Source: an uncultured Schlesneria sp. (GTDB lineage Bacteria > Planctomycetota > Planctomycetia > Planctomycetales > Planctomycetaceae). From it: DNA of 37,596 bases. Positions 9,364 to 37,134 of the stretch are shown one piece after another. The notes beneath the pieces were generated by a model. That model worked only from the letters and a program-made list of their open reading frames with translations, was not told the origin of the DNA and searched no databases. The translations under genes and the position numbers were made by a program. The stretch lies in contig CAIVEI010000179.1 in assembly GCA_903904835.1 (NCBI GenBank), positions 1 to 37,596 on the forward strand, read 5' to 3'. Within the stretch, counting starts at the first letter, position 1; every line of letters starts with the position of its first letter.

Positions 9364-9374
9364 CGGCTCCGGAT

Positions 9375-9402
9375 AAGATCCCTCGCTTGCGCGTCGGGCT
9401 AA
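9375..9402. repeat. Single copy of the dispersed GATCCCTCGCTTGCGCG repeat
   Basis: AAGATCCCTCGCTTGCGCG followed by TCGGGCTAA lies in the 52-base gap between two minus-strand genes. It separates a likely co-transcribed pair and begins 12 bases upstream of the downstream start codon. Confidence 0.85.
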
Positions 9403-9415
9403 TTTTGAAATGATG

Positions 9416-20766: not shown

Positions 20767-20896
20767 CGAGTTTCGATCGCAGTTCCGTCGATAAGCCGCA
20801 ATATTTTACCCGACCACTGTTTCGCCATTGCTTCAGCGCAGGTATCGCCTGCTTTGAATTTGATTCACGGACGTGCATCCGCACCAGGGAGCAGGC

Positions 20897-21808: not shown

Positions 21809-23805
21809 GCTTTTTGCAACCCTGGCTGCTGTGGGGCCTGCCACTGATCGCCTTGCCGATCATCATTCACCTGATCAATCAGCGGCGGTTTCAGACGATT
21901 CAATGGGCGGCCATGATGTTCTTGCTGGCCGCACACCGCATGGCACGTGGCTATTCCAGACTGCGTCAATGGCTGATCATGTTATTCCGGATGCTGGCGA
22001 TCGCCGGCCTGCTGTTCGCTGTCGCTCGACCACTTGCCAGCGGATGGCTGGGGCTTGCGGCGGGAGGCCAGGCAGACACGACGATCGTACTGCTGGACCG
22101 TTCGCCGAGTATGCAGCAGCGAGGCTCGGGGACCGGTGAATCCAAGTTGGAAACGGGCAAGAAGCAACTGTTACAAACGCTGCAGACGCTTGGTTCGGCT
22201 CGCTGGGTCGTGATTGACAGCGTTTCCAATGCACCGCACCAGATTGATTCCCCTGCCGCGATCATGAATCTCCCAAACGCAGGACCCGCCAGTTCTCCGG
22301 CCGATCTGCCTATCATGCTTCAAGCAGCCCATGATTATATCCGAGATAACAAGTCGGGACGAACTGAGATCTGGGTCTGTTCCGACCTGCGCGAAAACGA
22401 CTGGACGGCGGAAAGCAATCGCTGGTCAACGCTGCGCGACGCCTTTCTGGAATTCCCTCAGGGAGTGCGGTTTCATCTGCTCGCCTATTCGCAACTCCCT
22501 TCAACGAATACTTCCATCCGAGTGACTGACGTTAAGCGACAAGCGACAAGTGACGGTGCCGAACTGCTCGTCTCGCTCAAGATTTCCCGCGAAGGGACTG
22601 ACTCGCAGAAAATCAGCATTCCGGTCGAGTTTGACATTGAAGGGGCACGCTCGGTGTTGACTGTCGAACTCGACGGATTGACGACCGAACTGAAGGATCA
22701 CCGCATCCCCCTGGAGCGGGCACGAGAGCGAGGCTGGGGTCGAGTTTCGATCCCTGCCGATGCCAACCCGGCGGACAATGACTTCTATTTCGTCTTCGAC
22801 GTTCCACCACACCGAAAGACAATCGTCGTTGCGGAAGAGCCGCAAGTGGAAAAACCGCTTCAACTTGCTGCTGCAATTCCACCGGAGCCTTCGTTTGTCT
22901 GTACGGCAGACGTGATTGGGCTTGAGCAATTGCCCACGGTCGAATGGGACCAGGTCTCTTTGGTCCTGTGGCAGGGACCGCTTCCGTCGGGAACAGAGGT
23001 GGAACTGCTACAATCGTTTGTCGAACGAGGTGGTCAGGTTGTCTTTCTTCCACCTCGAAACCCGACAAGTGACGAATTTTTGGGAATTCGATGGAATGAA
23101 TGGGTCAGCTCAAACGACAATATTCCACTCGAAACATGGCGGAGCGACGGAGACTTGCTGAGCCGAACACTAAACGGCACAGCGCTCCCAGTCGGGCAAC
23201 TCGAAATTCATCAATATTGCGGACTGAATGGTGACCACACACCACTGGCGATACTCAAAGGGGGTGCGACTTTGTTAGCACGAGTCCCGACCAAACGAGG
23301 GGGTGTCTATCTCTGGGCGACGACCCCGGCACCGCGTGACTCTTCGCTGGCGACAGGCGGCGTCGTTTTGTACGCATTCGTTCAACGAGCGATTTCAGCC
23401 GGAGCCGTGGCGCTGGGTAAATCTCGGCAGCTTGACGCCGGTGATGCTCAAGGGGAAATCTCGTCAACCTGGAATCCTGTTGTTGAAGGGGACCAGGGAT
23501 TATCCACCGAGGCGCTGTATCACCGGGGAGTTTACAGCGCAAACGACCGCCTGCTGGCTGTCAACCGACCTGCCAACGAGGACGACGCCCGTGTTTTGAA
23601 TGAGTCTCGACTGGCCGAATTGTTTCGTGGTTTAAACTTCGTCCGCGTTGACGATCAGGCCGGAAGCGTCAGTTCGTTGATCCAGGAAATCTGGCGAGTG
23701 TTTTTGATTACGATGTTGATTTCGTTGATTCTCGAAGCCGTCCTTTGTCTCCCAAAAGTTGCGAGAACGACTGAAACGACACGAATTGCGGGAGCCGCGG
23801 CATGA
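21805..23805 (+). CDS. BatA-like N-terminal domain plus VWA membrane protein, 666 aa
   Basis: The N-terminus matches the aerotolerance BatA-type leader domain: TM1 about 6-24 (LLWGLPLIALPIIIHLI), then NQRRFQTIQWAAMMFL, then TM2 about 56-77. A VWA-type domain follows with MIDAS DRSPS (98-102). The middle (about 230-500) is beta-rich with a CARDB/Ig-like character and a GATase-like fold region (VSLVLWQGPLPSGTEVELL). A C-terminal TM is near 633-651 (FLITMLISLILEAVLCL). The topology places the large domain in the periplasm. It starts by a 4-base overlap with the DUF58 gene and ends by a 4-base overlap with the next, so coupled translation is likely. Bat proteins were named for aerotolerance in Bacteroides; that role is not established in Planctomycetes. 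Confidence 0.9.
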   Translation: MSFLQPWLLWGLPLIALPIIIHLINQRRFQTIQWAAMMFLLAAHRMARGYSRLRQWLIMLFRMLAIAGLLFAVARPLASGWLGLAAGGQADTTIVLLDRSPSMQQRGSGTGESKLETGKKQLLQTLQTLGSARWVVIDSVSNAPHQIDSPAAIMNLPNAGPASSPADLPIMLQAAHDYIRDNKSGRTEIWVCSDLRENDWTAESNRWSTLRDAFLEFPQGVRFHLLAYSQLPSTNTSIRVTDVKRQATSDGAELLVSLKISREGTDSQKISIPVEFDIEGARSVLTVELDGLTTELKDHRIPLERARERGWGRVSIPADANPADNDFYFVFDVPPHRKTIVVAEEPQVEKPLQLAAAIPPEPSFVCTADVIGLEQLPTVEWDQVSLVLWQGPLPSGTEVELLQSFVERGGQVVFLPPRNPTSDEFLGIRWNEWVSSNDNIPLETWRSDGDLLSRTLNGTALPVGQLEIHQYCGLNGDHTPLAILKGGATLLARVPTKRGGVYLWATTPAPRDSSLATGGVVLYAFVQRAISAGAVALGKSRQLDAGDAQGEISSTWNPVVEGDQGLSTEALYHRGVYSANDRLLAVNRPANEDDARVLNESRLAELFRGLNFVRVDDQAGSVSSLIQEIWRVFLITMLISLILEAVLCLPKVARTTETTRIAGAAA

Positions 23806-26012
23806 ACACCGTCCGCTCACTAACTTTTGTCTGGGCACCCTGGTCGATCGTGCTCTCGTTGCTCGTGATCGCCGTCACAGCAGGGCTTTGCTACGTCGCC
23901 TGGCAGCGTTCCGGCTATCGTCGATCAATCGGTTTACTGGAATTATTGCGACTGGCACTCGTCTCGCTAGGAGTTTTACTCTTCAACCAGCCGGAATGGG
24001 TTGAAGAGTATCGGCCGGACGACAAGCCGACCGTCGCCGTCTTATGGGATAATTCCGCGAGTATGGAAACGCGGGACGTCACTAATCACGAAACGGCGTC
24101 GACAACCGTTAAAACACGTCGAGAAGCCATCGCGCAACTGACCGATACACCTTTCTGGTCATCGCTGCAGGAACGGTTAACGATCATCGTTCAGCCGTTT
24201 GGAACGGCTGGCGCGACGACAACGACGGGCCGAGGCACGAACTTATATGAGCCGCTCGCAAGCGCACCCCAGCGATTCAAAAATCTGCACGCAGTTGTCC
24301 TGGCATCCGACGGAGACTGGAACGAAGGGCCGCCACCCGTTGAAGCCGCATCTGCACTAAGGCTTAAAGGGGTGCCGGTATTTACTGTTCCGGTCGGAAG
24401 TTCTTCGAGATTGCCCGACGTCGAATTATTAAGCCTCGACTCGCCGACGTTCGGCATCACAGGAAAATCAGTACGGATTCCATTTACGGTCGACAGTACG
24501 CTTCCACGCGAACATCTGACGACGATTAAACTGAAGGTCTCTGACGGTGAAGAGATCACGAAGGAAATTCGGATCGCTCCGATGGGTCGCACCAGCGACT
24601 TCCTGATCTGGAAACCCAAAACAACAGGTGACTATACACTTTCACTCGACGTTCCCAAGCACGCCGATGAACTGGTCGCCGATAACAACAAGCTGTCAGC
24701 CCCCATCGCCATCCGGGAGGAAAAGCTACGGGTTCTCGTGATCGAGTCGGTTCCTCGCTGGGAATATCGTTACCTGAGAAATGCCCTTTCTCGTGATCCC
24801 GGCGTCGAAGTTTCCTGCCTCTTATTTCATCCTGGACTGAATAAAGCGGGTGGCGGCAACAAGGATTACATCAAACAGTTCCCGAAAGGTCTGGACGAGT
24901 TATCGAAATATGATGTTGTCTTCCTGGGTGATGTTGGACTTGAGGACGGACAACTGACAGTCGAAGACTGCCGGTTACTCAAGGGGCTTGTCGAACATCA
25001 GGCCAGTGGACTGGTCTTCATGCCTGGCTTGCTGGGACGGCAGATGTCGCTTTCGGATACTGAACTCGGGAAACTTTGCCCCGTGATTCTCGACCCGGCT
25101 CAACCAGGGGGTTGGGGTTCACGCACACCAAGCCATTTTGAATTGACCGAGCTTGGCCGCCGCAGCCTGCTCACAAAGCTGGCGGATACACAAGATGACA
25201 ACATTGAGGTCTGGGAAGGACTTCCGGGCTTTCAATGGTATGCGCCAGCACTCAAGGTGAAAGCGGGTTGTGAAGTACTTGCAGTTCACAAGGATGTTGC
25301 CAACGAATATGGGCGACTGCCGCTGCTGGCCACCGGAACATATGGCGCGGGTAAGGTTCTGTTCATGGGGACCGACGGTGCCTGGCGATGGCGAAAAGGG
25401 GTCGAAGATAAATACCACTATCGTTTTTGGGGCCAGGTGGTACGCTGGATGGCGTATCAGCGTAACATGGCCAAGGGCGAATCGATGCGGATGTACTATT
25501 CCCCCGAACAACCTCAAGTGCGTCAGACAATTGCCTTAAGTGCCAACGTCATGGAAAAGAGTGGCGAGCCGTTACCGAAGGGGGATGTCACGGCTCGGAT
25601 TGTTGCTCCTTCGGGAAAAGCCGAAACGATCCGGTTTCAGTCGTCTGGCGATGAATGGGGCGCGTTCGCTTCCCGTTTCACCCCGGAAGAACCAGGTAAA
25701 CACGAAGTCTTCCTGAACTGCAAGCAGACTGGTGCAATTTTGGAGGCGTCATTTTTCGTTCAGGGATTGGCCGTCGAACGAATCGGTCGGGCGGCTCGGC
25801 CTGAAGTCATGGAAGAGATTTCACGAGTTTCCAAAGGACAAGTGATCGGACTCGATCGATTAGAGCAAGTGCTGAAATCGCTGGCCGCGTTGCCGGAACC
25901 TTTACCTTCCGTCAGGCGAGTTCAGTTGTGGTGTCATCCGATCGTGGCATCATTATTGGTTGCGATGTTAGGAGCGTTCTGGGTGGGACGTAAAGTTGTT
26001 GGTTTGATTTAA
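23802..26012 (+). CDS. Membrane VWA / glutamine-amidotransferase-like protein, 736 aa
   Basis: Two N-terminal TM helices (about 14-34 and 45-62), a VWA-like domain with DNSAS (83-87) at its start, then an Ig-like segment (about 215-300). From about 309 there is a class I glutamine-amidotransferase-like (ThuA/GATase1) fold: LRVLVIESVPRWEYRYLRNA and later YDVVFLGDVGLEDGQLT. No clear catalytic Cys-His-Glu triad is visible, so it is probably structural. A further Ig-like domain spans about 580-660. The C-terminal helix (IVASLLVAMLGAFWVGRKVV) is a final TM. This architecture recurs after MoxR/DUF58 in Planctomycetes. It overlaps the preceding gene by ATGA. Confidence 0.87.
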   Translation: MNTVRSLTFVWAPWSIVLSLLVIAVTAGLCYVAWQRSGYRRSIGLLELLRLALVSLGVLLFNQPEWVEEYRPDDKPTVAVLWDNSASMETRDVTNHETASTTVKTRREAIAQLTDTPFWSSLQERLTIIVQPFGTAGATTTTGRGTNLYEPLASAPQRFKNLHAVVLASDGDWNEGPPPVEAASALRLKGVPVFTVPVGSSSRLPDVELLSLDSPTFGITGKSVRIPFTVDSTLPREHLTTIKLKVSDGEEITKEIRIAPMGRTSDFLIWKPKTTGDYTLSLDVPKHADELVADNNKLSAPIAIREEKLRVLVIESVPRWEYRYLRNALSRDPGVEVSCLLFHPGLNKAGGGNKDYIKQFPKGLDELSKYDVVFLGDVGLEDGQLTVEDCRLLKGLVEHQASGLVFMPGLLGRQMSLSDTELGKLCPVILDPAQPGGWGSRTPSHFELTELGRRSLLTKLADTQDDNIEVWEGLPGFQWYAPALKVKAGCEVLAVHKDVANEYGRLPLLATGTYGAGKVLFMGTDGAWRWRKGVEDKYHYRFWGQVVRWMAYQRNMAKGESMRMYYSPEQPQVRQTIALSANVMEKSGEPLPKGDVTARIVAPSGKAETIRFQSSGDEWGAFASRFTPEEPGKHEVFLNCKQTGAILEASFFVQGLAVERIGRAARPEVMEEISRVSKGQVIGLDRLEQVLKSLAALPEPLPSVRRVQLWCHPIVASLLVAMLGAFWVGRKVVGLI

Positions 26013-26164
26013 ACGGAATTGAAAGCTGCCGAACAAGAAAAATCCGGGTCGCTTTGGCGACCGGTTTCCTTGGTTCATGATTGATACGATTCGAAATAAC
26101 ATCCGGGTCATGATTTTGCCCGGCACGCATTGAGAGTTTGTTTGTGTTCCAGGAGAAAGCCGAA

Positions 26165-29100
26165 ATGAGCGTTTCACAGCCGAATGCCGGACTGAAGTTG
26201 CCTTCATCGCTAAAAACGCAACTGGATGAATTCCGCCGTCGTGTCTGGACCATCAAGTCCATCGAAGCGGTCTGTGGTGCTCTATTTGGAATTTTTGTTT
26301 CCTATCTGGTCGTCTTCGGACTGGACCGGGTCATGGACACTCCCGCCTGGGCTCGTACTGCGATCTTCTTGATCGCGGTCGCAGCATGTGCCTACGTGCC
26401 GGTCTACCTGCATCGCTGGATCTGGTGCAATCGCCATCTGGAACAACTCGCTCGATTGCTCAGCCGTCGTTATCCAAGCATCGGCGATCAGATGCTCGGG
26501 GTGATTGAACTGGTCCGTAACGATCTGGAGCAGCAACGATCACGAGCGTTGTGTGAAGCGGCCATCAACCAGGTCGCTGATGTCGCAAGCAAGCGAGACT
26601 TCACCGACGCCGTCCCCAACCCACGTCATCGGATGTGGGCCTGGATGGCTGCCGTTCCCGCCGCCGCCGCATTGCTGGTACTCGCCATTTTCCCATCGGC
26701 GGCTTCAAACGCCTGGGCAAGATTTGCCGCTCCATGGCAGCCCACACCTCGCTATACCTTTACGGAAATCGAACGTCTGGCCGACCGGGTTATTGTCCCA
26801 CACGGTGAAGCGGTGACTGTTCCTGTGCAACTTCTGGAAACTTCCAGTTGGCATCCTGCACAAGGGACTGCACAGCTTGGCAGCCAACTTCCGCTGAAAG
26901 CCGAACTGAAAGAGGGTCGTTACGAATTCGAACTACCACCGCAAATCGACGCGGGACGTTTTGATTTACAAATCGGTGACGCACGACAAAGAACTCGCGT
27001 CGAACCAAAACTGCGTCCGGAACTCACGCACGTTGTGGCGGATATCCAATTACCTGAGTACCTCAACCGAACCCAGCCATTGCACAAGGATATTCGTGGT
27101 GGAACCGTCACCGTTGTGAATGGCAGTTCAGCAACGTTCAGCGTCACCGCAAATCGCCCCTTAGTCTCGGGGGAATGGAGAACAGCCGACCGCCCCGAGG
27201 AATCGCTCGCCATCGCCCCAAGCCCCAACTCTTCCAGCGAAACGATGTCGAGTCCTGTCATCCCGATCGACGCCTCGAAAAAACTCCAGTTTCAATGGAA
27301 AGACGAATATGGGTTGATGGGAAAAGAGCCGTTAACAATCACGATCAACTCTCGAGAAGACGAAGCGCCATCACTGGCGTGTGAGGATCTTCCGCGCCAG
27401 AGGGTTGTGATCGATTCGGAAACCTTAACGTTCAAAGTCCGTGCTCAAGACGATTTCGGGATCAAGGTTGTGGGTATCGAATGGAAAGGGGCCGACAAGT
27501 CCGCAGTCTCAAAGCCGGCACATGGCGAAAGAGTCTTAGCCGCTGGTGCCAGTGAAAAAGAACTGCTGGAACTGACAGGAACGTTCTGTGCCAAAACTCT
27601 CGACATCGAACCGCAACCTCTTCACGTTCGGTTGTTTGTTGAGGATTATTTTCCTGGCAGATCTCGGACGTATTCGACTCCTTTCGTCCTCTACGTGTTG
27701 AGTGCCGAACAGCATTCTATCTGGCTGACGGAACAATTGAGCAAATGGCACCGACAGTCGCTGGAAGTTCGTGACCGCGAAATGCAACTCCATCACACGA
27801 ACCAGGAACTTCGCATGCTCTCATCCGAAGAACTTGATCAACCTGAAAATCGGCGAAGAATTGAAACTCAGTCGACCGCCGAACGAGCCAATGGTCGACG
27901 ACTGACGGGCCTTGTGAATGGTGGCGAAGACCTGATTCGCCAGGCGATGCGTAATCCAGAATTTGGCGTCGGGCACCTCGAAAAGTGGGCCGAGATGCTG
28001 CAGATCTTGAAGGACATTTCGGGAAATCGGATGCCCAACGTGGCGGACCTGTTGAAGCAGTCATCACAGGCGCCTGGCATGCTGGCCAGCCAGTCACCCA
28101 AACCAAACGGGCCAACAGCGGGACAGAATCGAGCCAGCGGATCGGGTGCACCGCAAAAACCAGGTGAAAGCAAGCCGAAACCTGCCGTTCCAACTGTTGC
28201 TGATGGCGAATCTTCGCAAAACCCTGCCAAGAAGCAGGAAGGTGAACCTGAAGAACCGAGCAATTCCAGTCCTCGACTCGGATTGCCGATGACGACAATT
28301 ATTGCCGCCGGAAACAACAAACCCAAGCCGCCAGCTCCTGCAGCAAAGAAGCTGGACGAAGCGGTCAAAGCACAGCAGGATCTGTTGGCTGAATTCGACA
28401 AGATCGCCGACGAACTGAATAAGGTTCTGGCGAACCTGGAAGGAAGCACGCTGGTCAAACGATTGAAAGCCGCTTCGCGAAAGCAATACATGGTCGCTGG
28501 TAAAATCGGTGACCAGGTGAGTGGCGCGTTTGGCTTGAAGAACAAGACCGCTGGCCCATTGAAACAGGCGATGGAAGACTTGTCGAAACAAGAAGCGGCC
28601 AGCAGCCAGGACGTTTCAATGATCATGGACGACATGCAATCGTATTTTGAACGCCGACGCTTTCAGCGATTCAAAACAGTTCTCGACGAAATGCGCACGC
28701 AAGACGCCATCGGCAGCTTGCGTCAATTGGGAGATGACCTGAAAGTCGAAACCGGGATGTCGATTGCCCAGTGTGAATTCTGGTCGGATACGCTTGATCG
28801 ATGGGCCGACGATCTGGTCGACCCCGCCTGCTGCGGCAAGTGTCCTGGTTGCAAATCTAAAGCCAGCCTTCCTCCGTCCGTTGTGCTGGAAGCGATGCAG
28901 ATCCTGGAAGCCGAAGTCAATTTGCGGGAAGAAACCCGAGTCGCGGAACAAGCCCGCCCGGCGATCTCACCTGCGGAGTACGGTGATCGAGCAAATCAAC
29001 TGTCGAAGACTCAGGACGAACTTTCTGATCGAGTTGCCAAACTGACCATGCGCATTCGAGAACTACCTGATGGCGAAGAGGAATTCGCCAAAGAAATCGG

Positions 29101-29455
29101 TCTCCTGAATCGAGTCGAACTGGTGATGGATGAGGCGACAGGTCTGCTGAAGAGTCCCGATACCGGTGCGCGAGCCGTCGGGGCCGAAACGGAAGCAATT
29201 GAACTGCTGCTTCAATCGAAAAAGATCAATCCCAAGAGTGGAGGTGGAGGGGGATCGAGTCCTGGCGGAGGTGGTGAAGGGACAACGAACGATTCGGCCC
29301 TGGCTTTGGTCGGATCGGGAGTCAATGACAAGGAAGTACGCGAAGACCGAGGAATCTCTCAAGCGACAGGTGAATCGGGTGCATCATTGCCTGAAGAGTT
29401 TCGAGCGGGACTGGATGAATACTTCAATCGCCTCGAACGAGATTCCAGCAAATAG
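26165..29455 (+). CDS. DUF4175-like multi-TM coiled-coil membrane protein, 1096 aa
   Basis: The ATG at 26165 follows CCAGGAGAAAGCC, a good Shine-Dalgarno; nine earlier in-frame codons are rejected. Likely TM segments: about 33-53, 63-83 and 159-177, in the arrangement seen in DUF4175-like proteins. A beta-rich extracytoplasmic part follows (about 210-500), then long helical/coiled-coil stretches (about 530-640 and 740-1000) separated by a Pro/Ser/Lys-rich linker (about 640-720). A compact Cys cluster, C889-C890-x2-C893-x2-C896 (PACCGKCPGCKSK), may bind metal. A Gly-rich stretch (SGGGGGSSPGGGGEG) precedes the C-terminus. It closes the Bat-like operon, 152 bases after the previous gene. Probably a scaffold; no enzymatic motif found. 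Confidence 0.85.
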   Translation: MSVSQPNAGLKLPSSLKTQLDEFRRRVWTIKSIEAVCGALFGIFVSYLVVFGLDRVMDTPAWARTAIFLIAVAACAYVPVYLHRWIWCNRHLEQLARLLSRRYPSIGDQMLGVIELVRNDLEQQRSRALCEAAINQVADVASKRDFTDAVPNPRHRMWAWMAAVPAAAALLVLAIFPSAASNAWARFAAPWQPTPRYTFTEIERLADRVIVPHGEAVTVPVQLLETSSWHPAQGTAQLGSQLPLKAELKEGRYEFELPPQIDAGRFDLQIGDARQRTRVEPKLRPELTHVVADIQLPEYLNRTQPLHKDIRGGTVTVVNGSSATFSVTANRPLVSGEWRTADRPEESLAIAPSPNSSSETMSSPVIPIDASKKLQFQWKDEYGLMGKEPLTITINSREDEAPSLACEDLPRQRVVIDSETLTFKVRAQDDFGIKVVGIEWKGADKSAVSKPAHGERVLAAGASEKELLELTGTFCAKTLDIEPQPLHVRLFVEDYFPGRSRTYSTPFVLYVLSAEQHSIWLTEQLSKWHRQSLEVRDREMQLHHTNQELRMLSSEELDQPENRRRIETQSTAERANGRRLTGLVNGGEDLIRQAMRNPEFGVGHLEKWAEMLQILKDISGNRMPNVADLLKQSSQAPGMLASQSPKPNGPTAGQNRASGSGAPQKPGESKPKPAVPTVADGESSQNPAKKQEGEPEEPSNSSPRLGLPMTTIIAAGNNKPKPPAPAAKKLDEAVKAQQDLLAEFDKIADELNKVLANLEGSTLVKRLKAASRKQYMVAGKIGDQVSGAFGLKNKTAGPLKQAMEDLSKQEAASSQDVSMIMDDMQSYFERRRFQRFKTVLDEMRTQDAIGSLRQLGDDLKVETGMSIAQCEFWSDTLDRWADDLVDPACCGKCPGCKSKASLPPSVVLEAMQILEAEVNLREETRVAEQARPAISPAEYGDRANQLSKTQDELSDRVAKLTMRIRELPDGEEEFAKEIGLLNRVELVMDEATGLLKSPDTGARAVGAETEAIELLLQSKKINPKSGGGGGSSPGGGGEGTTNDSALALVGSGVNDKEVREDRGISQATGESGASLPEEFRAGLDEYFNRLERDSSK

Positions 29456-29640: not shown

Positions 29641-30615
29641 ATGAGAAATCTCGTGCAGAACAAGATTGCCAAAGCTTTGCTGTTCGTCATCGCGTCGGCG
29701 TGTTCCGCGAGCGCAGATGATGAGCCGTCCAAGGAGACAGTCAAAGTCGTCGGCACCGTCATCGAGGTCAAGCAGGAAAAACCGAAGAAGGAGCCGGAAC
29801 GGAACGAACCTGCCGATCGTCTGAATCTTGATGTTTTGATCGCCCCGCTTCAGCTTTTGTTTGGCGGCGGGGGTGGCGGTGGTGCGATGCAAGCGCCAGT
29901 GGCATTTAACGTCAACCTGGTCGACGCTCAAAATGACGCTCTGATGCAGCAGTTTCTCGTACAGTATCGACCGTTTCTGACAGAGGAACTGGGATTCGTT
30001 CGTCTGGTTTGCAGCGACCTTTCGAAAGAGCAGCGTCCAAAAATCAAAGCGGCAGGCGAAGCCAGTTTGAAACAAGCGGCAAAGGAAATGGCCCAATTTC
30101 AAAATCGCCAAAACCAGGGGATCGCGATTCAACCGCGAACGCAACCTAAACCGCGAAAAATGGTCCGTGAGGCAGTCTCGAAAGCGCTTCGGGAAACGTT
30201 AACGGTCGAGCAGATGCAACGGTACTCACTCGAAGCAAACGCACGAAAGCAGCAGCGAAAACGAGCCGCGATACTATGTGTCGTCTCGAGACTGGATGGA
30301 TGCCTGAGCCTGAGTACCGATCAACGCGAGAAAATCATTGACTCAATCTCGTCTCATTGGGAAGACAAATGGGAACAGTGGTTGATCATTAATGTGTATG
30401 GAGATCAATACTTCCCTGAAATGCCGGAACAATACGTCGCACCGATTTTAAATCCAGATCAGAAGTCCATCTGGAATGGGCTGCAGAAAATCAATTTGGG
30501 TGTGTGGTGGGGAAACAATGGACAACCCCCCCCGAGCGATGGTTGGTGGGGTGACGAACCTGATGCGGTAGATCAGGCAAATGGGCAACCGGCTTTCATT
30601 TTCCGGGGCGATTGA
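29641..30615 (+). CDS. Secreted LTxxQ-like family protein, first and most divergent paralogue, 324 aa
   Basis: Unknown function. Signal peptide MRNLVQNKIAKALLFVIASA, cleavage near ASADD. It has a Gly run at about 75-81. Features shared with the five following genes: LSKEQRPKIKAAGEASLKQ (about 127-145), RETLTVEQMQRYSLEAN (about 184-200), LSLSTDQREKIIDSISSHWE (about 222-241) and PILNPDQKSIWNGLQ (about 268-282). Each motif is L-[ST]-x-x-Q, the pattern of Spy/CpxP-type periplasmic chaperones, but overall similarity to those is not claimed. The C-terminus is Trp-rich (GVWWGNNGQPPPSDGWWGDE). It starts 185 bases after the DUF4175-like gene and ends 48 bases before the next paralogue. No clear Shine-Dalgarno. 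Confidence 0.75.
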   Translation: MRNLVQNKIAKALLFVIASACSASADDEPSKETVKVVGTVIEVKQEKPKKEPERNEPADRLNLDVLIAPLQLLFGGGGGGGAMQAPVAFNVNLVDAQNDALMQQFLVQYRPFLTEELGFVRLVCSDLSKEQRPKIKAAGEASLKQAAKEMAQFQNRQNQGIAIQPRTQPKPRKMVREAVSKALRETLTVEQMQRYSLEANARKQQRKRAAILCVVSRLDGCLSLSTDQREKIIDSISSHWEDKWEQWLIINVYGDQYFPEMPEQYVAPILNPDQKSIWNGLQKINLGVWWGNNGQPPPSDGWWGDEPDAVDQANGQPAFIFRGD

Positions 30616-30663
30616 CATCATCCAAACGGAAGAGGCTGTTGGGACCCTCGTGGAGTAACATGG

Positions 30664-31836
30664 ATGAGACCAAGTTGGTATCGAGAGAATGATCACGGCC
30701 AGGAACTGAGCGTTCCTACGCTAGCCCGACGCGCAAGCGAGGGATCTTGTATGCAATTTGAGGGGTCGTATCGTCAACAGAACGAGGATCCCTCACCTGC
30801 GCGTTTTAGTCTCCCCACATCAGCCCGATGCGCGAGCGAGGGATCTTCTCTTCAATTCGATAAAGATCCCTCGCTTGCGCGTCGGGCTAGCGTTTGGAGC
30901 CTGTTCTCGAAAAATTGTTTAATCGCCATTGTGTTCTTGATCGTTGGGTCGTCATTCGCATGTGCCGCTCCTGATGACGTCGAAGCGGTCAAACAAGACG
31001 AACAGCAGGTCAACGTCCAGTTGTTTCAGATGGACGAAAACAACTTTGATGCAAACGTCTTTCAACCGAGCGGCAACGCCAAGACCGCTCGAACCCAAAT
31101 CGAAACCAAACTGAAGTTGCAACTGGACGAACTCCAACGCGTTTGCGGGATCACCGAAGCTCAAAAGCTGAAGCTGACGCTGGCGGCCAGTTCCGATATC
31201 AAGCGATTCTTCGACGAGGTTGACAAGGTCCGTAAAAAGATCAAAGGGGGGAAGCTCGACCAGAATGAATGGAACAACATCTGGCAAGAGATCCAACCGC
31301 TGCGTATCAAGCAATCAACGGGCCTTTTCGGGGACGCGTCATTCTTCGCTAAAACCGTTCGTAAGACGCTGAGCGAAGAACAAATCCAGAAGTATGAACT
31401 CGTCGTGAATGAACGACGTAAGTTCCGCTATCGTGCGAGTCTTGAAGTGGTCGTGACAAACCTCGAAAGCACAGTACCTTTACGGCATACGCAGCACGAA
31501 GCCATCGTCAAGTTGCTGTTAGACGAAACTCAGCCGCCGCCGACGTTTGGCCAGTACGACCAGTATTTAGTCATGCATCAACTAGGAAAACTCGCCGAAC
31601 CCAAATTAAAACCATTGCTTGATGAGCATCAATGGAAGCTGATGGAAGGGCAGATTCAACAATTCAAGGGGATGGAGCAATTCCTGATTCAGAACGGACT
31701 CATTCCCAAAGAGGATGAAGAACTGAAAGCACGAGTCACTGTCAAGAAACGAATCCCTGCTGCACACCAGCAAGCGGACGCAGAAGAACCAGAAAATCAG
31801 ACCCGAGAAAAACCCGTTCCCTGCCCTGATCCCTGA
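30664..31836 (+). CDS. Secreted LTxxQ-like paralogue 2, repeat-derived N-terminal extension, 390 aa
   Basis: The signal peptide (KNCLIAIVFLIVGSSFACAA) begins only at about residue 83. The preceding 80 residues are translated from the dispersed repeat (LARRASEGS at about 20-28, DPSLARRAS at about 68-76). GGAG at 30652-30655 sits 8 bases before the ATG at 30664, and the repeat itself provides GAGGGA 6 bases before an ATG at 30751. No ATG, GTG or TTG lies between 30751 and the signal-peptide core, so either an N-extended precursor is made or the native start was lost. Core blocks: GNAKTARTQIETK (137-149), ITEAQKLKLTLAAS (163-176), FGDASFFAKTVRKTLSEEQ (222-240), LRHTQHEAIVKLLLDE (273-288) and LKPLLDEHQW (315-324). 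Function unknown; part of the six-gene array. Confidence 0.75.
   Translation: MRPSWYRENDHGQELSVPTLARRASEGSCMQFEGSYRQQNEDPSPARFSLPTSARCASEGSSLQFDKDPSLARRASVWSLFSKNCLIAIVFLIVGSSFACAAPDDVEAVKQDEQQVNVQLFQMDENNFDANVFQPSGNAKTARTQIETKLKLQLDELQRVCGITEAQKLKLTLAASSDIKRFFDEVDKVRKKIKGGKLDQNEWNNIWQEIQPLRIKQSTGLFGDASFFAKTVRKTLSEEQIQKYELVVNERRKFRYRASLEVVVTNLESTVPLRHTQHEAIVKLLLDETQPPPTFGQYDQYLVMHQLGKLAEPKLKPLLDEHQWKLMEGQIQQFKGMEQFLIQNGLIPKEDEELKARVTVKKRIPAAHQQADAEEPENQTREKPVPCPDP
30722..30890. repeat. Cluster of four repeat copies inside the start of paralogue 2
   Basis: Copies lie at 30722-30748 (minus orientation), 30787-30803 (plus, degenerate), 30821-30847 (minus, two changes) and 30863-30890 (plus). 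They form two successive hairpins. The stretch stays in frame with the downstream gene through all four copies. Confidence 0.85.
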
Positions 31837-31848
31837 GTTGAGGCTGTC

Positions 31849-32859
31849 ATGGACATGCCACGTTTTCACTTTTCGAAACTTCTGATCGTCGTCACGATTC
31901 TTGTATCGTGCGGCGTGAGCGTCCGGTCTGAGGATCTTGGTCGCCAGGAAGAGATCATCCGCTTAAAACAGGCCCAGAACGAGAGATTAGAGGATGCCAG
32001 GTTAATCGCCGAAAAAGCTCAGCGAGATGCAAAGTTTGTTTTCCAGAATGTCCACGCCGGCAACGATGTCATCCTCCCTCAAGTCCATCATATCGACCTT
32101 CTGGTTTATCGAACGACTGTGTTTTATGGCCAACAGCAAATCGAAAATCAACTTGCAGATAAGGTTCAGCAGTTAAGTTCCGAGTATGACCTTTCGGAAG
32201 CTCAGCAAGCCAAACTGTTGCTCGCGGCACAGTGTGAAGCAAAACTGTTTTCGAACGCGGTTGATGAGTTGCGTCAGAAATATAACTCTTTGGGGTCCGA
32301 CCGTATCGGACAGCTTGAGCTCCTGAAGCAAGCTCAGACTTTGCAACATAAGCGTCAGACATTATTCGGCCCCGACTCCTTTTCCTCGAAAGTGATGGCC
32401 AGGACGGTGACTGGCGAGCAATTGTCAAAGCACCGGGCAGCACTGGACGACCGCCTGAGACTTCGACATCGCTCAAACATTGAAGGCGCGATCCGGGATA
32501 TTGAACGTCATGTCGTGATCAAGATCCCACAACAAGAGGCGCTCGTCGAATTGCTGATTTCGGAAATTCCACCTCCGAAATCGAGTCACGATTACGATGA
32601 GACCCTCGTCAAATATCAGCTTTCCCGAATCCCCGAACAGAAGTTGCGACCCATTTTTGATGAAGATCAATGGCCGCAAGTTCGCCAGGCGCTCGACGGC
32701 TTTCACGAGTTGGAAGCAGCGCTGGCGCAACAGGGCCTGATTGGGGAAGAAGGTGTAGAAGCCTCGAATCCAGCGACGATTCCTGATCAAACAAAGATAC
32801 CGACCGACGCAGCTCCAATTAAGCGAGACCGAGCGCAGCAAGAGGGGGGAAAACCATGA
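31849..32859 (+). CDS. Secreted LTxxQ-like paralogue 3, 336 aa
   Basis: Signal peptide MDMPRFHFSKLLIVVTILVS, cleavage near VRSED; an ATG two codons on is equally possible. A Glu/Arg/Gln-rich helix (about 30-65) follows, then the shared blocks: LSEAQQAKLLLAAQ (115-128), LFGPDSFSSKVMARTVTGEQ (172-191), IERHVVIKIPQQEALVELLI (218-237) and RPIFDEDQWPQVRQ (267-280). Spacing between blocks is like that of paralogue 2. The tail is Pro/Ala/Lys-rich. It follows paralogue 2 by 12 bases and its stop overlaps the next start (ATGA), so it is co-translated with paralogue 4. No known family is assigned. Confidence 0.8.
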   Translation: MDMPRFHFSKLLIVVTILVSCGVSVRSEDLGRQEEIIRLKQAQNERLEDARLIAEKAQRDAKFVFQNVHAGNDVILPQVHHIDLLVYRTTVFYGQQQIENQLADKVQQLSSEYDLSEAQQAKLLLAAQCEAKLFSNAVDELRQKYNSLGSDRIGQLELLKQAQTLQHKRQTLFGPDSFSSKVMARTVTGEQLSKHRAALDDRLRLRHRSNIEGAIRDIERHVVIKIPQQEALVELLISEIPPPKSSHDYDETLVKYQLSRIPEQKLRPIFDEDQWPQVRQALDGFHELEAALAQQGLIGEEGVEASNPATIPDQTKIPTDAAPIKRDRAQQEGGKP

Positions 32860-33692
32860 ATATCGGATTCATTAATCCCCGTACTATTTTGCCATTCGTT
32901 ATTGTAATTTCAGCGATAACGCAACGCACGTCAGTAGGCGCTGAAGATGATTTCGTGAAACCAGAACTTGTTGCGGCAATACCGGCTAATAAAGCAGTTC
33001 CTGTTAATAAGATCGTCCATCTCCCAGATTTAGCGTTAGTTGATCATTTCTTTGGAGGCAATCCGGATACTTTTCAGCAACGGGTTGAGACTGAAATAGA
33101 TCAGAAAGTAAATAAAATCTGCCTGAAATTCGATCTCAACGAATCGCAGCGAACAAAACTGTTTCTCGCTGCATGTCATGAAAAGAAAGAATATTTTCGC
33201 CAGATGGATTGGTTGCGACAGAAGTGGGAAGCACCCCAGAAAGATCACATGGAATTGGTTAAGATACGAGATCGGGTGGACACCCTTCGATACCAATCGT
33301 TGGGCCCCAGTACCTTTTTTGGCAAAGTGTTGACAAGGGTACTTGACGAAGAAGCATCGACGATTGATCAGCCCAACCTCAATGATCGGAACTTTGTGCT
33401 ACATTGCTCAAACATCAATGGTGCGGTTCGACTTATCGAGCGACACGTCGTTTTATCGGCTCCTCAGCGTGAAGCACTCATTGAGCTAATCCTGAAAGAG
33501 ACTCGTGTTCCCAAATTCCTTGGCGATTACGACGATCTGGTCGTGCAATATCGATTGTCGCGTTTACCAGATGAGAAATGGCAGCCGTTGTTCAGCAAAG
33601 ACCAATGGCCGGGAGTACGTTTAGCCTTCGAGGCCCTACGGCAGTGCGAACCTGTTCTCAAACGACACGGACTAATCAATGAAGAACCTTGA
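32856..33692 (+). CDS. Secreted LTxxQ-like paralogue 4, 278 aa
   Basis: The shortest member. A probable signal peptide (about 8-29, ILPFVIVISAITQRTSVGAE) and the shared blocks FFGGNPDTFQQRVETEID (65-82), LNESQRTKLFLAAC (94-107), LGPSTFFGKVLTRVLDEE (149-166), IERHVVLSAPQREALIELIL (194-213) and QPLFSKDQWPGVR (243-255). It ends right after block D plus a short helix (VLKRHGLINEEP), lacking the Pro/Lys-rich tail of paralogues 2 and 3. It overlaps paralogue 3 by 4 bases, with GGGGGGAAAACC as Shine-Dalgarno. By eye, its DNA is more A+T-rich than paralogue 3. A hairpin and a repeat cluster follow it. Confidence 0.8.
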   Translation: MNIGFINPRTILPFVIVISAITQRTSVGAEDDFVKPELVAAIPANKAVPVNKIVHLPDLALVDHFFGGNPDTFQQRVETEIDQKVNKICLKFDLNESQRTKLFLAACHEKKEYFRQMDWLRQKWEAPQKDHMELVKIRDRVDTLRYQSLGPSTFFGKVLTRVLDEEASTIDQPNLNDRNFVLHCSNINGAVRLIERHVVLSAPQREALIELILKETRVPKFLGDYDDLVVQYRLSRLPDEKWQPLFSKDQWPGVRLAFEALRQCEPVLKRHGLINEEP

Positions 33693-33715
33693 GAAGCTTT
33701 GCCTCAGACCAAAGC

Positions 33716-33740
33716 AGCCCTCTCGCTCCGCGAGAGGGCT
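33716..33740. terminator. 11-bp stem hairpin after paralogue 4
   Basis: AGCCCTCTCGC (33716-33726) and GCGAGAGGGCT (33730-33740) form a perfect stem with a 3-base loop, 24 bases after the stop codon. No T-run follows (ACGTTTG), so it may be a dispersed palindrome and not a true intrinsic terminator. Confidence 0.45.
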
Positions 33741-33891
33741 ACGTTTGAAGAAAACCCGATGCACCTAACAACAGATGAATCGTGAGATTCACCTGGACAA
33801 TAAAAATCGCCCTGATGATGAAACGCCGTACATGATTTTTCGCGAGAAAATTGGAATGAATTTGAAAAGCGTGTGGCAGGGACATTCACGT

Positions 33892-34102
33892 TTTCTGCTC
33901 TCCACTGACCTCGCGTCAGTGGAAGCAACGACTGGACAGCTACCGAACCAATCAATCGGCTTGCTCCCGAAAAGACATAGCTTAAAAATCGCTGCTTCCA
34001 CCGATGCAAGATCGGTGGAGAGCTATCCGTTATATTTGGGTTCGCCCGGTGTAGCCGTCCAGTCGCTGCTTCCACCGACGCAAGGTCGGTGGAGAGCATT
34101 TT
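33892..34102. repeat. Three copies of a TCCACCGAC hairpin repeat in the 33693-34203 gap
   Basis: Copies lie at about 33892-33943 (minus), 33991-34028 (plus) and 34049-34102 (plus). Each has an internal hairpin such as CCACCGACGCAAGGTCGGTGG. The first and third are inverted relative to each other and share the flank CGACTGGAC-GCTAC. The 511-base gap contains no convincing gene; it splits the six-paralogue array into a 4-gene and a 2-gene block. Confidence 0.8.
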
Positions 34103-34203
34103 CCAATCATCACTTCTGCGGTTGCCTTGTTCTCTTGTTGCGGAAATATCCTTCAGTGAGTTGCCTGATAATGCCAAGTCAATTGATTTGAAACCTCACA
34201 TTC

Positions 34204-35118
34204 ATGACCAGGCAACGTTATCATCGAACCAGACTGATGGCACTTTTGGCCATCCAGTTCGCATGCGCATCGATCGTCATCGCCGATGACGACCTGAAAG
34301 AAGTTGCGCCGAAGAAGGCTGGCAATTTCATTCGGCTCGCCAAAGACGAGCCATTTGATAGCTGGATGTTTCGCGGAAATCCTGAGTTTTTTCGAAAACA
34401 ACTCGAAGCCAAAATCGGCCCTGCGATCAACGACCTTTGCAACAAATACAACCTGGCAAACGCACATCGTCCAAAACTGGCACTCGCAGCTCGCGTTGAT
34501 CTCCATCGGTGCGACGTCCGAATTGAAGAACTCCGTCGACGGTTTGAAGCGACGATGAAAGATAACAACGCTTTGGGACAGCATGATTCAAAAAGCGATT
34601 GGGTCGTTGTGCGAAGCGAAATACAAGAATTCCGTGATCACGAGGTACAAAATCTGTTCGGCCCCAATTCTTTCGTGGCCAAGTCGGCAATCAAGATCGC
34701 TGCCGACTTACAACGTCGTTCAAGCATTGATCGAGTGATCAAGGAAATCGAAAACTACATTGACCTGGAGAGTGCTCAGAAAGAATCGCTGATCGAACTG
34801 CTCTCGACGGAACCTCGTTCAACGAGGATCAACCCGGAAATCGACTTTGTCGACGTCAAGAATCAGTTCTCTCAATTGCCCGATTCGACCTTAAAGCCGA
34901 TGTTTAACAATGATCAATGGCCCCTCGTACGTCATCTTCTCGAAGAGATTGAAGCGAATCGAGAGTTGAATAATAAACAACGACTGATCGCAAAGAACTC
35001 AGAAGACGACATCAAGCGCCCGTTCGTCAGCCGATACAAGCAAAGAAGTCGTCCCGCCGATGCCACCACCCCCGAAAACATTCCCGATCCGATTGCTTTG
35101 AAGAAGGATGGTGAATGA
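34204..35118 (+). CDS. Secreted LTxxQ-like paralogue 5, 304 aa
   Basis: Probable signal peptide RLMALLAIQFACASIVIADD (10-29); an ATG at 34237 would start it more tightly, but neither start has a strong Shine-Dalgarno. Shared blocks: MFRGNPEFFRKQLEAKIG (55-72), LANAHRPKLALAAR (84-97; the Q of LTxxQ is replaced by H here), LFGPNSFVAKSAIKIAADLQ (151-170), IENYIDLESAQKESLIELLS (182-201) and KPMFNNDQWPLVRHLLEE (231-248). Compared with its paralogues it lacks about 15 residues between LQ (170) and the next block. It ends 1 base before the chosen start of paralogue 6. It is preceded by the repeat-filled gap and may have its own promoter. Confidence 0.78.
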   Translation: MTRQRYHRTRLMALLAIQFACASIVIADDDLKEVAPKKAGNFIRLAKDEPFDSWMFRGNPEFFRKQLEAKIGPAINDLCNKYNLANAHRPKLALAARVDLHRCDVRIEELRRRFEATMKDNNALGQHDSKSDWVVVRSEIQEFRDHEVQNLFGPNSFVAKSAIKIAADLQRRSSIDRVIKEIENYIDLESAQKESLIELLSTEPRSTRINPEIDFVDVKNQFSQLPDSTLKPMFNNDQWPLVRHLLEEIEANRELNNKQRLIAKNSEDDIKRPFVSRYKQRSRPADATTPENIPDPIALKKDGE

Positions 35119-35119
35119 C

Positions 35120-36055
35120 ATGAACGGCTTTGTGCGATCATTCCCATGCGGGCCTTTTCTGCTTCTTTCCAGTATTGCTTGCTTCTCTGTTTTCGCTTCC
35201 GATGATGACTTTGTTGTTGATCGCTTGGATGAAAATGCGACGGGCAACGAAATTCCTGGAGCACAAATCCAACGGCTGGCTGTCATCAGGGACCTGGCGA
35301 TCGACCCGATAGATGACGAGGTTGTCGTCCAATTCGAAAAATTCATTTTCCATCAGGACGGCAACGCCAAGCTTGGCGAACTCAGGATGAATGCCGAAAG
35401 AGAACAGGCCATCAACGCTCTCGACCGCGTTGTTCGATTGACCAATACTCAAAAGCGAAAACTCGACCTGGCTGGTCAAATCGATTGTCGGCGGTTTCTC
35501 AATCGAGTTAAGGCCGCAAGTCAAAACTTTCGTAACCCGGTGCATAGGACGAACGAGTCTCAAAAAGAAATGATGCGGTTGCGGGCGAAAACGGACTCTG
35601 GAGTCCTCAGCTCCGACTCCTTCTTTATAAAGTCGATCTCTGTCATTCTGGACAGCAGCCAAATGGTGTTACTCAACGAACGTAAGCGCTCCATACACCA
35701 CGGCTTAATTAAGAAGTCATTGCGCGATTTTGAAGCGAGGTTGACGCTGAGCGAACGACAGCGAGAGTCCCTCACTCAGATCATGCTGGATGAGATCCCC
35801 TACGACCCGACAAGCGAGAATGGTGAATTACTCGTCTCGAGGTCAGAACAAATGATGATGATGTACCGACTCTCGTGTATTGCCGACGAGAAGATCGAGT
35901 CTCTATTTGCCCCAGCTCAATGGCACAAGGTACAGCCGCTGATCAAGGAATGTTACCATTACAAAGAATACCTCGTTGATCGAGGCTTACTCGATCCCGA
36001 AGCTGATGTTGTACACGCTGACGATCCTGCGATTCGAATCAAGGAACCGAAATGA
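35120..36055 (+). CDS. Secreted LTxxQ-like paralogue 6, 311 aa
   Basis: The ATG at 35120 is chosen over 35108 because AAGGATGGTG then falls at Shine-Dalgarno distance and the signal peptide (MNGFVRSFPCGPFLLLSSIA, cleavage near VFASDD) is compact. Shared blocks: FHQDGNAKLGELRM (77-90), LTNTQKRKLDLAGQ (107-120), SSDSFFIKSISVILDSSQ (164-181; the FGP lead is lost), LTLSERQRESLTQIMLDE (208-225) and, near the end, ESLFAPAQWHKVQPLI. The GNAK block is closest to paralogue 2, suggesting nearer kinship. It overlaps the toroid gene by 4 bases (ATGA), which ties this family physically to that protein. Confidence 0.8.
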   Translation: MNGFVRSFPCGPFLLLSSIACFSVFASDDDFVVDRLDENATGNEIPGAQIQRLAVIRDLAIDPIDDEVVVQFEKFIFHQDGNAKLGELRMNAEREQAINALDRVVRLTNTQKRKLDLAGQIDCRRFLNRVKAASQNFRNPVHRTNESQKEMMRLRAKTDSGVLSSDSFFIKSISVILDSSQMVLLNERKRSIHHGLIKKSLRDFEARLTLSERQRESLTQIMLDEIPYDPTSENGELLVSRSEQMMMMYRLSCIADEKIESLFAPAQWHKVQPLIKECYHYKEYLVDRGLLDPEADVVHADDPAIRIKEPK

Positions 36056-37134
36056 ATAAGAGATCCCACTTTTCGAGTCACATTTTTCGTACGCTGTTGT
36101 TTTCACTTTTGGCGTTCGGGATAACGGGTTCGCACACGTTCGCTCAGGCCCCGTCTGTCCGCTTCGGCGAAGTTGTCCCTCGTGATGTTCGCGAAATCTA
36201 CGAACGTGGCCTGCAATATCTCGTCACGACACAAAACGAAGCGGGCGACTGGAAAGGGGGCGGCGAACAGGGACCGGGGGTTACTGGCTTGTGCCTGATG
36301 GTTCTTTTGGCCAGCGGTGAAGATCCGAACTTCGGTCTCTATAGCAATAACGTCCGCCGCGCGCTCCGTAATATCATCTCTGGACAGGATGCTGGCACCG
36401 GCTTTTACGGTGGGCATTTGGGACATAGCAGTATGTACAACCACGGATTCGCCATGCTCGGACTGGCCGAAGCTTATGGAGCGGTCGATGACCGGAACTT
36501 ATGGACGGGAAACGAACCGAACCGCCGGTCGATCGGCCAGTCATTAGAGTTGGCTGTCCGTGCGGCCATCACATCGCAAAAGAAGAACTCGTTCGGTGGC
36601 TGGCGATATTCTCCCGATGGAAACGACGCCGACACCTCCGTCAGTGGTGCTGTCCTGGTTGGTCTTCTCGCCGCGAGAAACGCCGGGATCGAAGTCCCAG
36701 ATGAGGTGATCGACAAGTCGATCAACTACTTCACCAAGATGACATCTCCCTCCGGCCAGGTCGGCTATTCAGGAGGGATCGGGGGATTTGACGAGTCATT
36801 CGCACGGATATCAATCGCCACCCTGGTCTATTCGGTCTCACGACGAAAAGATCTGTCACAGTACAAGGCAACGCTGGGCTATCTGACTCAACGACTTGAA
36901 AACGTCTCGCAACAAAGCTGGCCAGAATACACGCGATATTATCAGGCCCAGGCATTGTTCCAGGGTGATGTCGATGCCTGGGAAAAATGGAACAAATTAC
37001 TCGTAAGGCATCTCAAGCAGATCCAACTGGCTGACGGAAGCATTCCCGGCCAGACGGGTGTGACACTGGGGACTTCAATGTCGTGCCTGGCCCTGGCTTT
37101 GAATTACCGATTTTTGCCGATTTACGAAAGATAA
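36052..37134 (+). CDS. Secreted prenyltransferase/squalene-oxidase-repeat (alpha/alpha-toroid) protein, 360 aa
   Basis: Signal peptide about 1-31 (RTLLFSLLAFGITGSHTFAQ). The mature chain has repeats of the alpha6/alpha6-toroid type: LQYLVTTQNEAGDWKGGGEQ (about 55-74), GFYGGHLGHSSMYNHGFAML (about 121-140), FGGWRYSPDGNDADTSVSGA (about 180-199) and SGQVGYSGGIGGFDESFARI (about 231-250). At the position of the class II cyclase acid motif (DxDD) it reads DADTS, so cyclase activity is unlikely. Secretion also argues against a role in hopanoid synthesis; it is more probably a binding or scaffold protein. It closes the paralogue array by a 4-base overlap. Family members with this layout are common in Planctomycetes with no known role. 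Confidence 0.87.
   Translation: MNKRSHFSSHIFRTLLFSLLAFGITGSHTFAQAPSVRFGEVVPRDVREIYERGLQYLVTTQNEAGDWKGGGEQGPGVTGLCLMVLLASGEDPNFGLYSNNVRRALRNIISGQDAGTGFYGGHLGHSSMYNHGFAMLGLAEAYGAVDDRNLWTGNEPNRRSIGQSLELAVRAAITSQKKNSFGGWRYSPDGNDADTSVSGAVLVGLLAARNAGIEVPDEVIDKSINYFTKMTSPSGQVGYSGGIGGFDESFARISIATLVYSVSRRKDLSQYKATLGYLTQRLENVSQQSWPEYTRYYQAQALFQGDVDAWEKWNKLLVRHLKQIQLADGSIPGQTGVTLGTSMSCLALALNYRFLPIYER

Follow-up and report, generated by a model that had tools for sequence, protein, structure and literature searches.

We analysed a stretch of 37,596 bases from an uncultured Schlesneria sp., a planctomycete (assembly GCA_903904835.1, contig CAIVEI010000179.1; hereafter the window, which is the whole of contig C179 within an 8.18 Mb genome), in which six tandem genes for probably exported proteins stand between a MoxR/Bat-like operon and a gene for a toroid protein. 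The original prediction had described the six as paralogues with LTxxQ-like motifs, reminiscent of the periplasmic chaperones Spy and CpxP, and as a lineage-specific set working with the toroid protein. The finding is real, the Spy/CpxP reading is unsupported and the genomic setting is wider than could be seen from this stretch. We tentatively regard the six proteins as subunits, alpha-helical and probably exported, of a single envelope system conserved in planctomycetes, in which members of two related subfamilies, here called gA and FAM, would dock clients. The features in question are as follows.

19538..20566, forward strand: AAA+ ATPase, which we take to be MoxR-type; its orthologues stand first in the operon of relatives, and NCBIfam models of chelatase-type AAA ATPases match below cut-off.
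20873..21808, forward strand: DUF58 protein with VWA_2 (Pfam E 4.9e-44 and 3.9e-10).
21805..23805, forward strand: BatA-type protein with an N-terminal double transmembrane domain (PF07584, 75.6 bits; TIGR02226, 77.6 bits).
23802..26012, forward strand: GATase1-like membrane protein, presumably of the von Willebrand factor A (vWA) type (PF07090 at E 1.8e-5, below its cut-off; syntenic orthologues).
26138..29455, forward strand: membrane-anchored protein of 1105 amino acids (aa), whose hydrophobic stretches begin around residues 36-44, 71-75 and 169-173.
28841..28843, forward strand: codon TGT for Cys902 of the 1105 aa protein; 22 of the 56 other loci that could be read have TGA, predicted selenocysteine (Sec), at this site.
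29641..30615, forward strand: gA, probably exported, of the sister subfamily (orthologue in 57 of 58 loci by an independent profile; hhalign 99.2% to FAM).
30664..31836, forward strand: FAM core copy, orthologue of the one-per-operon copy elsewhere (tree, substitution rates, AlphaFold2 model).
31849..32859, forward strand: FAM extra copy 1 (alignment, tree, leave-one-out profile).
32856..33692, forward strand: FAM extra copy 2 (tree, leave-one-out profile); its counterpart has 191 aa in genome G001.
34204..35118, forward strand: FAM extra copy 3 (alignment, tree, leave-one-out profile).
35120..36055, forward strand: FAM extra copy 4, with an alternative start of the open reading frame (ORF) at 35108 (alignment, tree, leave-one-out profile).
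36052..37134, forward strand: probably exported alpha/alpha toroid protein (AlphaFold2 model; Foldseek match to squalene-hopene cyclase 8paj_B).

The six ORFs and the toroid ORF lie where they had originally been placed, both ATGA overlaps (32856-32859 and 36052-36055) are present, and the MoxR, DUF58 and BatA-type genes are adjacent, as in a Bat-like operon; BatA-type matches number 11 in the same genome, and FAM genes stand beside just one of these 11 places. Across relatives the genes form a conserved row of MoxR, DUF58, BatA, GATase-vWA, the 1105 aa protein, gA, FAM, toroid and a thioredoxin-domain protein, the last of which is lost from the window because the contig ends. The family profile matched 25 of 59 relatives, the genome itself counted, and among 20 stretches (L and G numbers are our labels for loci and genomes) the whole row from MoxR to toroid was seen in ten (L044, L046-L052, L055 and L059) and the row from DUF58 onward in three further ones (L043, L045 and L053), the remainder being cut by contig ends except for L057 and L061, where FAM lies off the operon, and L056, where the genes are in pieces.

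We then scored gene order around the toroid gene in 80 loci, and because these are the best 80 of 398 toroid relatives from a toroid-based contig scan, the counts lean to close toroid orthologues. With 9 member-sharing loci excluded, FAM was found upstream of the toroid gene in 64/64 loci with at least 1.5 kb of room (profiles from other loci) and gA in 57/58 loci with 2.5 kb of room (independent profiles), the single gA miss being L103, where one 730 aa ORF stands. As the profiles of the first count (FAM 70/71, gA 61/61) had been built partly from these same loci, all loci were also recounted with older profiles (FAM 72/72, gA 63/64). The 1105 aa gene preceded the toroid gene in 55 of 57 loci (4 kb of room), and the thioredoxin gene followed it in 73 of 74 (1.5 kb of room; exception L118); L090 was unscored, and the FAM gene of L091 was missed through the overlap filter. 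Named carriers of the operon include Singulisphaera acidiphila, Rhodopirellula rubra, Roseiconus nitratireducens, Aquisphaera insulae and Bythopirellula polymerisocia. The link is also kept, sometimes moved or as one longer gene, at more distant loci (L157, L158, L160, L161, L162, L163 and L165): in L157 and L158 a single longer FAM-like gene adjoins MoxR and runs divergently from the genes for the 1105 aa protein and the toroid, L162 (E 3e-5) and L163 (E 6e-8) have one longer, weakly matching gene between the 1105 aa gene and the toroid gene, and L161 carries gA alone, L165 both gA and FAM. In a phylum-wide sample, with at most 8 candidates scored per genome, the FAM profile matched 12 of 294 genomes, and the family is therefore detectable in just a small part of the phylum. 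Linkage with the toroid gene and the MoxR/vWA operon is thus conserved far beyond this genome, and the earlier term "lineage-specific" applies to the four extra copies and fails for 29641 and 30664, whose orthologues sit in the widespread operon.

Leave-one-out profiles, searched among 2000 shuffled decoys none of which was listed, recovered 30664 at E 8.3e-54, 31849 at 7.8e-60, 32856 at 3.1e-56, 34204 at 5.2e-37 and 35120 at 4e-34, confirming the homology of the five later proteins (E 4e-34 to 8e-60), and recovered 29641 at E 2e-8 as a distant homologue. When run against the six frames of its own genome (E <= 0.1), the five-row profile hit these six places and no other. Alignments of 26 FAM and 18 gA relatives, later 68 and 52, resolved two related subfamilies, FAM (30664 type) and gA (29641 type), which matched each other profile to profile at 98.3% (E 2.1e-14) and, with the deeper sets, at 99.2% (E 6.1e-20; hhalign). 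Protein 29641, originally taken for a looser version of the five, is instead a member of a separate subfamily with its own orthologues. Hydrophobic N-termini, judged by eye, make export of the six probable, and gA and FAM at large are probably exported. FAM has conserved polar columns (Lys, Gln, Asp), with no His or Cys in its invariant or nearly invariant columns; gA has one near-invariant Cys. An internal duplication of FAM was considered and rejected, the two halves matching in hhalign just within a 30-residue stretch that they shared by construction.

In a 67-row, midpoint-rooted tree 30664 clustered with the sole FAM copies of other operons, and the four other window copies fell, on long branches, in one group (98/95) with same-genus copies and one same-family genome. 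A second group of extra copies comprised 12 rows (100/100); the two groups join, with weak support (67/90), and may or may not have arisen independently. The tree thereby indicates that the four window copies besides 30664 and gA are FAM duplicates common to Schlesneria and near kin. Among 57 loci with at least 4 kb upstream, 38 had one FAM copy, 9 two, 4 three, 2 four, 3 five and 1 none, this last being the artefact at L091. Ratios of nonsynonymous to synonymous substitution rates (dN/dS; Nei-Gojobori, against at most 3 close species) were 0.03-0.05 for the 1105 aa protein, 0.05 for the toroid protein, 0.05-0.06 for BatA, 0.08-0.12 for 30664, 0.18-0.23 for gA and 0.19-0.33 for the extra FAM copies, which are under weaker purifying selection than 30664. 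The extra copies might accordingly be near-neutral birth-and-death duplicates without new function, gA and 30664 alone being of consequence, as would fit the higher ratios (0.19-0.33 versus 0.08-0.12), the single copy in 38/57 loci and the counterpart of 32856, which is short (191 aa) in G001 and was not seen in the G002 array. We consider this unlikely: the ratios are well below 1, G000, G001, G002 and G005 each retain three of these four genes, and extra copies occur in other clades too.

Several smaller observations concern these genes. The ORF coordinates of 30664 stand, and its start is doubtful: repeat copies open the ORF, whose hydrophobic export signal sets in around 30901, and the true start is probably close to that position. 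The short repeat (LARRASEG in one frame), which may have displaced that start, is found in the N-terminal part of ORF 30664 (window 30700-30900) and in another ORF (7543-9513). Gene 35120 has two possible starts (window 35108-35120), the one at 35108 overlapping the upstream gene by 11 nucleotides (nt). An intergenic palindromic repeat, TCCACCGAYGCAAGRTCGGTGGA, lies at window 33901-34093 and is present at 19 places in the genome with at most 3 mismatches (reversed control, 0).

Pfam and NCBIfam assign none of the six proteins to a family, LTXXQ (Spy/CpxP) included, in keeping with the earlier remark that little is recognisable beyond the export signal; the profile search thus left six homologous proteins that neither database covers. 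The LTXXQ model PF07813 found 2 of 68 FAM members (best E 0.1) and 1 of 52 gA members (E 0.094), and we rejected membership of Spy/CpxP. DUF1350 (7/68 FAM members, best E 0.001), Stf0 sulphotransferase (one FAM member, 0.00059) and SpoIIIAH (one gA member, 0.0033) were taken as chance matches. Structures were modelled for 30664 and the toroid protein, each alone. AlphaFold2 gave the mature part of 30664 a predicted local distance difference test score (pLDDT) of 91.0 and a predicted template modelling score (pTM) of 0.79, with eleven helices, and Foldseek returned no PDB match for this confident model at E <= 0.001 (best 0.57), nor was Spy/CpxP among the best 50 of its 107 matches, bearing in mind that small helical folds can be missed in such comparisons. 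Profile searches of PDB sequences with the family also gave no match.

These results bear on the possibility that gA and FAM are periplasmic holdase chaperones of the Spy/CpxP kind, catching unfolded envelope proteins under stress. The helical, probably exported nature of the proteins would suit such a role, as would the strict L[ST]xxQ motif, which exceeds the shuffled mean (0.09-0.34) in 5 of 6 (29641 has 3, 30664, 31849 and 32856 one each, 34204 none and 35120 two). At the second position, where LTxEQ had been said to end the block in most of the proteins, the alignment shows the strict motif solely in 29641 and 30664, so that this statement was too strong. With PF07813 reaching E ~0.1 in those few members and no PDB match obtained by profile or by Foldseek at E <= 0.001, kinship to Spy/CpxP is unsupported and we regard a holdase function as improbable.

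The main ground for a docking role is that the first FAM module also occurs free of the rest of FAM in relatives, where it is combined with repeats. The first half of FAM is found outside the operon in G022, which has many paralogues, and singly in G007 and G001 (L143-L156); G022 has 14 such further FAM-like places, 12 of which were retrieved. Pfam, run on six of the 14 free-module stretches picked by eye as repetitive-looking, identified leucine-rich repeats (LRRs) in L143, L147, L148 and L150 and WD40 repeats in L153 and L154, and LRRs were also seen by eye in L144, L149, L151 and L152. Combinations with LRR and WD40 repeats suggest protein partners, which speaks against the alternative that gA and FAM are periplasmic sensors, which take up a small ligand or metal and pass a signal on to the membrane complex. 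Such a sensor would be expected to be exported and encoded beside membrane-protein genes, as these probably exported helical proteins are, and might use the conserved Lys, Gln and Asp columns; the (nearly) invariant FAM columns hold neither His nor Cys, though gA has its one near-invariant Cys, and we think a sensor rather less probable than a holdase.

Even less can be said for reading the operon as one of the MoxR-vWA systems of biological conflict (immunity). MoxR-vWA ternary conflict systems are described in planctomycetes, one class with beta-propellers (PMC7159879). The available text of that paper has no occurrence of "squalene", "BatA" or "thioredoxin", and the operon, because of its near-constant presence and order across the loci studied and the very low dN/dS of its core genes, looks like housekeeping, which leaves this explanation with a very small chance.

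The toroid protein was modelled by AlphaFold2 with pLDDT 88.2 and pTM 0.89, and the model matched 84 PDB chains at E <= 0.001 (Foldseek; probability 1.00 in the best 50), including squalene-hopene cyclases, GH76 and C3 (best E 2.5e-6, 8paj_B); its label is therefore right by predicted fold. Downstream of the toroid gene, L046 encodes a protein of ~940 aa with a C-terminal Redoxin/AhpC-TSA domain, in which ResA, TlpA and DsbE models match below cut-off within residues 792-918.

No Pfam or NCBIfam family covers the 1105 aa protein, and we set aside "D4175", a name that neither database supports. In 21 loci its gene is split into a long part and ~195 codons, and because the parts share one frame and lie 24 nt apart in all of them, we dropped a frameshift or gene fission. 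The stop at the split is TGA in all 21, and the site, readable in 56 of the 80 loci (24 unreadable), is TGA in 22 with L092, where the ORF is broken at a further place too, and never TAA or TAG (L073, L078, L081, L084, L092, L095-L098, L100, L102, L104, L105, L109, L111-L114, L121, L124, L133 and L135). Cys occupies this position in 31 of the 56 (20 TGC, 11 TGT) and lies one codon later in three (L089, L099 and L116), which are outside the Cys counts. The lone Cys or Sec is followed by Pro-Gly in 52/53 loci. A CxxC/UxxC redox pair was considered and dropped, as the TGA loci have no second Cys in the 18 residues compared.

A bacterial Sec insertion sequence (SECIS) is a hairpin 3' of the TGA whose small apical loop, 16-37 nt from that codon, contains a G. 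Codons +7 to +9 after the TGA are invariant among the TGA loci (GGC AGT TTG, 22/22) and form CGGCA-GUU-UGCCG, whose first loop base is the 23rd after the TGA and so falls in this range. Bacterial SECIS elements are likewise described as lying just 3' of the TGA (PMC9312934). The hairpin core was present in 22/22 TGA loci versus 1/31 Cys loci (Fisher test 5e-14, a value that, like the one for SelB below, ignores shared descent, the TGA label needing 6 changes on the toroid tree, 3 of them forced by well-supported branches). Five of its pairs are kept in 22/22, once through a two-sided change (L073) and once as a G-U (L095), and a sixth pair is lost in 7. When 45 nt were folded, minimum-energy prediction gave a mean z of -1.18 for TGA loci versus -0.44 for 34 other loci and chose the hairpin in part only; because it often prefers other structures, support for the hairpin comes from sequence constraint rather than folding energy. 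Rfam returned no match on the TGA stretch of L081.

Searches for SelB and tRNA-Sec covered 50 of the 56 readable loci (omitting L071, L072, L089, L099, L116 and L141, all without TGA). SelB exceeded its cut-off in 20/22 TGA genomes versus 6/28 Cys genomes (Fisher test 7.7e-7), and tRNA-Sec scored at least 63 bits in 18/22 TGA genomes, including both without SelB, versus the same 6/28 Cys genomes, which gives one or both in 22/22 TGA genomes and 6/28 Cys genomes by either. The 63-bit line is our own, set after a gap in the scores had been seen (63.3 versus 55); at Rfam's 47 bits the counts were 19/22 TGA, 13/28 Cys and 5/14 control genomes, and because of the latter this line also admits a weaker, perhaps ordinary, tRNA. 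The remote loci L161 and L165 likewise have TGA at the site and SelB, with a similar hairpin by eye, and the Schlesneria genome itself has no SelB above cut-off. L138, the sole Cys locus with the hairpin core, is from a genome with SelB and a strong tRNA-Sec match, a pattern such as a recent Sec-to-Cys change would leave. To judge from DNA, the 1105 aa family looks like a predicted, apparently unlisted selenoprotein family in other species: none of the 119 families (by its own count) in the available inventory of PMC13188914 could be equated with it, and a listing in S9 Table of PMC4807772 is possible. An ordinary stop or assembly error that splits the gene in two is the least probable of all the explanations considered, since, for all that most TGA loci are from metagenome assemblies, that the Sec reading is known here from DNA and not from peptides, that Rfam was silent at L081 and that folding often picks other structures, it has to contend with the same codon in 22/22 and never TAA/TAG, conserved in-frame flanks with 24 nt between the parts in 21 split loci, the hairpin core in 22/22 versus 1/31, and SelB in 20/22, the other two genomes having a strong tRNA-Sec match.

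Taken together, we favour, with a little less than even confidence, an envelope machine absent from the literature searched (titles and abstract openings revealed no published description of the operon or the family), composed of a MoxR/vWA motor, a new selenoprotein family, a secreted toroid protein, a thioredoxin and gA/FAM adaptors of new fold, whose first module would be a mobile docking domain and which would have expanded in Schlesneria for several clients. MoxR proteins with vWA co-chaperones are described as ATP-driven remodelling systems (PMC7159879), and here the MoxR and vWA proteins might do the same to a membrane complex that has the 1105 aa protein as its base. The single invariant Cys of that protein, Sec in many species, would be a redox-reactive site, possibly serviced by the ResA/TlpA-like domain encoded downstream. 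gA and FAM, which we infer to be periplasmic adaptor subunits, would dock clients, the toroid protein first, onto this complex; extra FAM copies could widen the client range. Overlaps and conserved order suggest co-transcription of the row.

Several observations weigh against this machine. It is known from sequence and models, contact of FAM with the toroid or membrane proteins being presumed, and because gA and FAM are without known fold or family, no function is transferable to them. Some FAM genes lie apart from the operon (L057, L061). The remote locus L167 yielded neither FAM nor gA, the same holds for L164 and L166 (both short), and in G018 the toroid/1105 aa part (L159) is far from the MoxR/FAM part (L160). 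The free module, mostly N-terminal, is internal in L147 and L153; L145, L146, L155 and L156 are repeat-free by eye, and the six scanned proteins had been hand-picked from 14. A second Cys stands at +3 in 13/31 Cys loci and in none of the TGA loci (18 residues compared). Finally, Leptospira biflexa without any bat genes is reported, in the available part of the study, to have no oxidative-stress phenotype (PMC3557215).

Planctomycetes have unusual envelopes, and there are few handles on envelope maintenance. The nine genes, several without a family name, turn up as a fixed set under record titles that include Planctomycetaceae, Pirellulales, Rhodopirellula and Isosphaeraceae, and because they travel together across these records they probably matter to the cells that have them. 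The Cys/Sec position points to a candidate catalytic or ligand residue in a 1105 aa protein that otherwise offers few clues, so that changing this one residue could test for a redox role. Since automatic gene calling would tend to break this gene into two at the TGA, members of the family may be going unnoticed in many genomes.

How does the operon compare with known systems? With LTXXQ proteins (PF07813; Spy, CpxP) gA and FAM have in common that they are probably exported and helical and carry L[ST]xxQ motifs, but they miss the Pfam model and give no fold match at E <= 0.001. The toroid protein, as modelled, appears to share the fold of the alpha/alpha toroids of squalene-hopene cyclase, GH76 and C3, from which it differs in being probably exported and in identities of 10-18% among the matches listed. 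The 1105 aa family resembles predicted bacterial selenoprotein families with Cys/Sec pairs in its TGA/Cys alternation, downstream hairpin, SelB and tRNA-Sec, whereas none of those in the available table of PMC13188914 is recognisably this protein. A MoxR-type ATPase with a vWA partner, and occurrence in planctomycetes, are common to the ternary conflict systems, which in the available text of PMC7159879 have other third partners, none of squalene, BatA or thioredoxin type, while the order of the planctomycete operon is near-constant. The Bat/MoxR-vWA operons of the Bacteroides aerotolerance type likewise line up genes for a MoxR-type ATPase, DUF58, a double-anchor protein of BatA type and one more membrane protein, and to these the planctomycete row adds genes for the 1105 aa Cys/Sec protein, gA, FAM, the toroid protein and the thioredoxin-domain protein.

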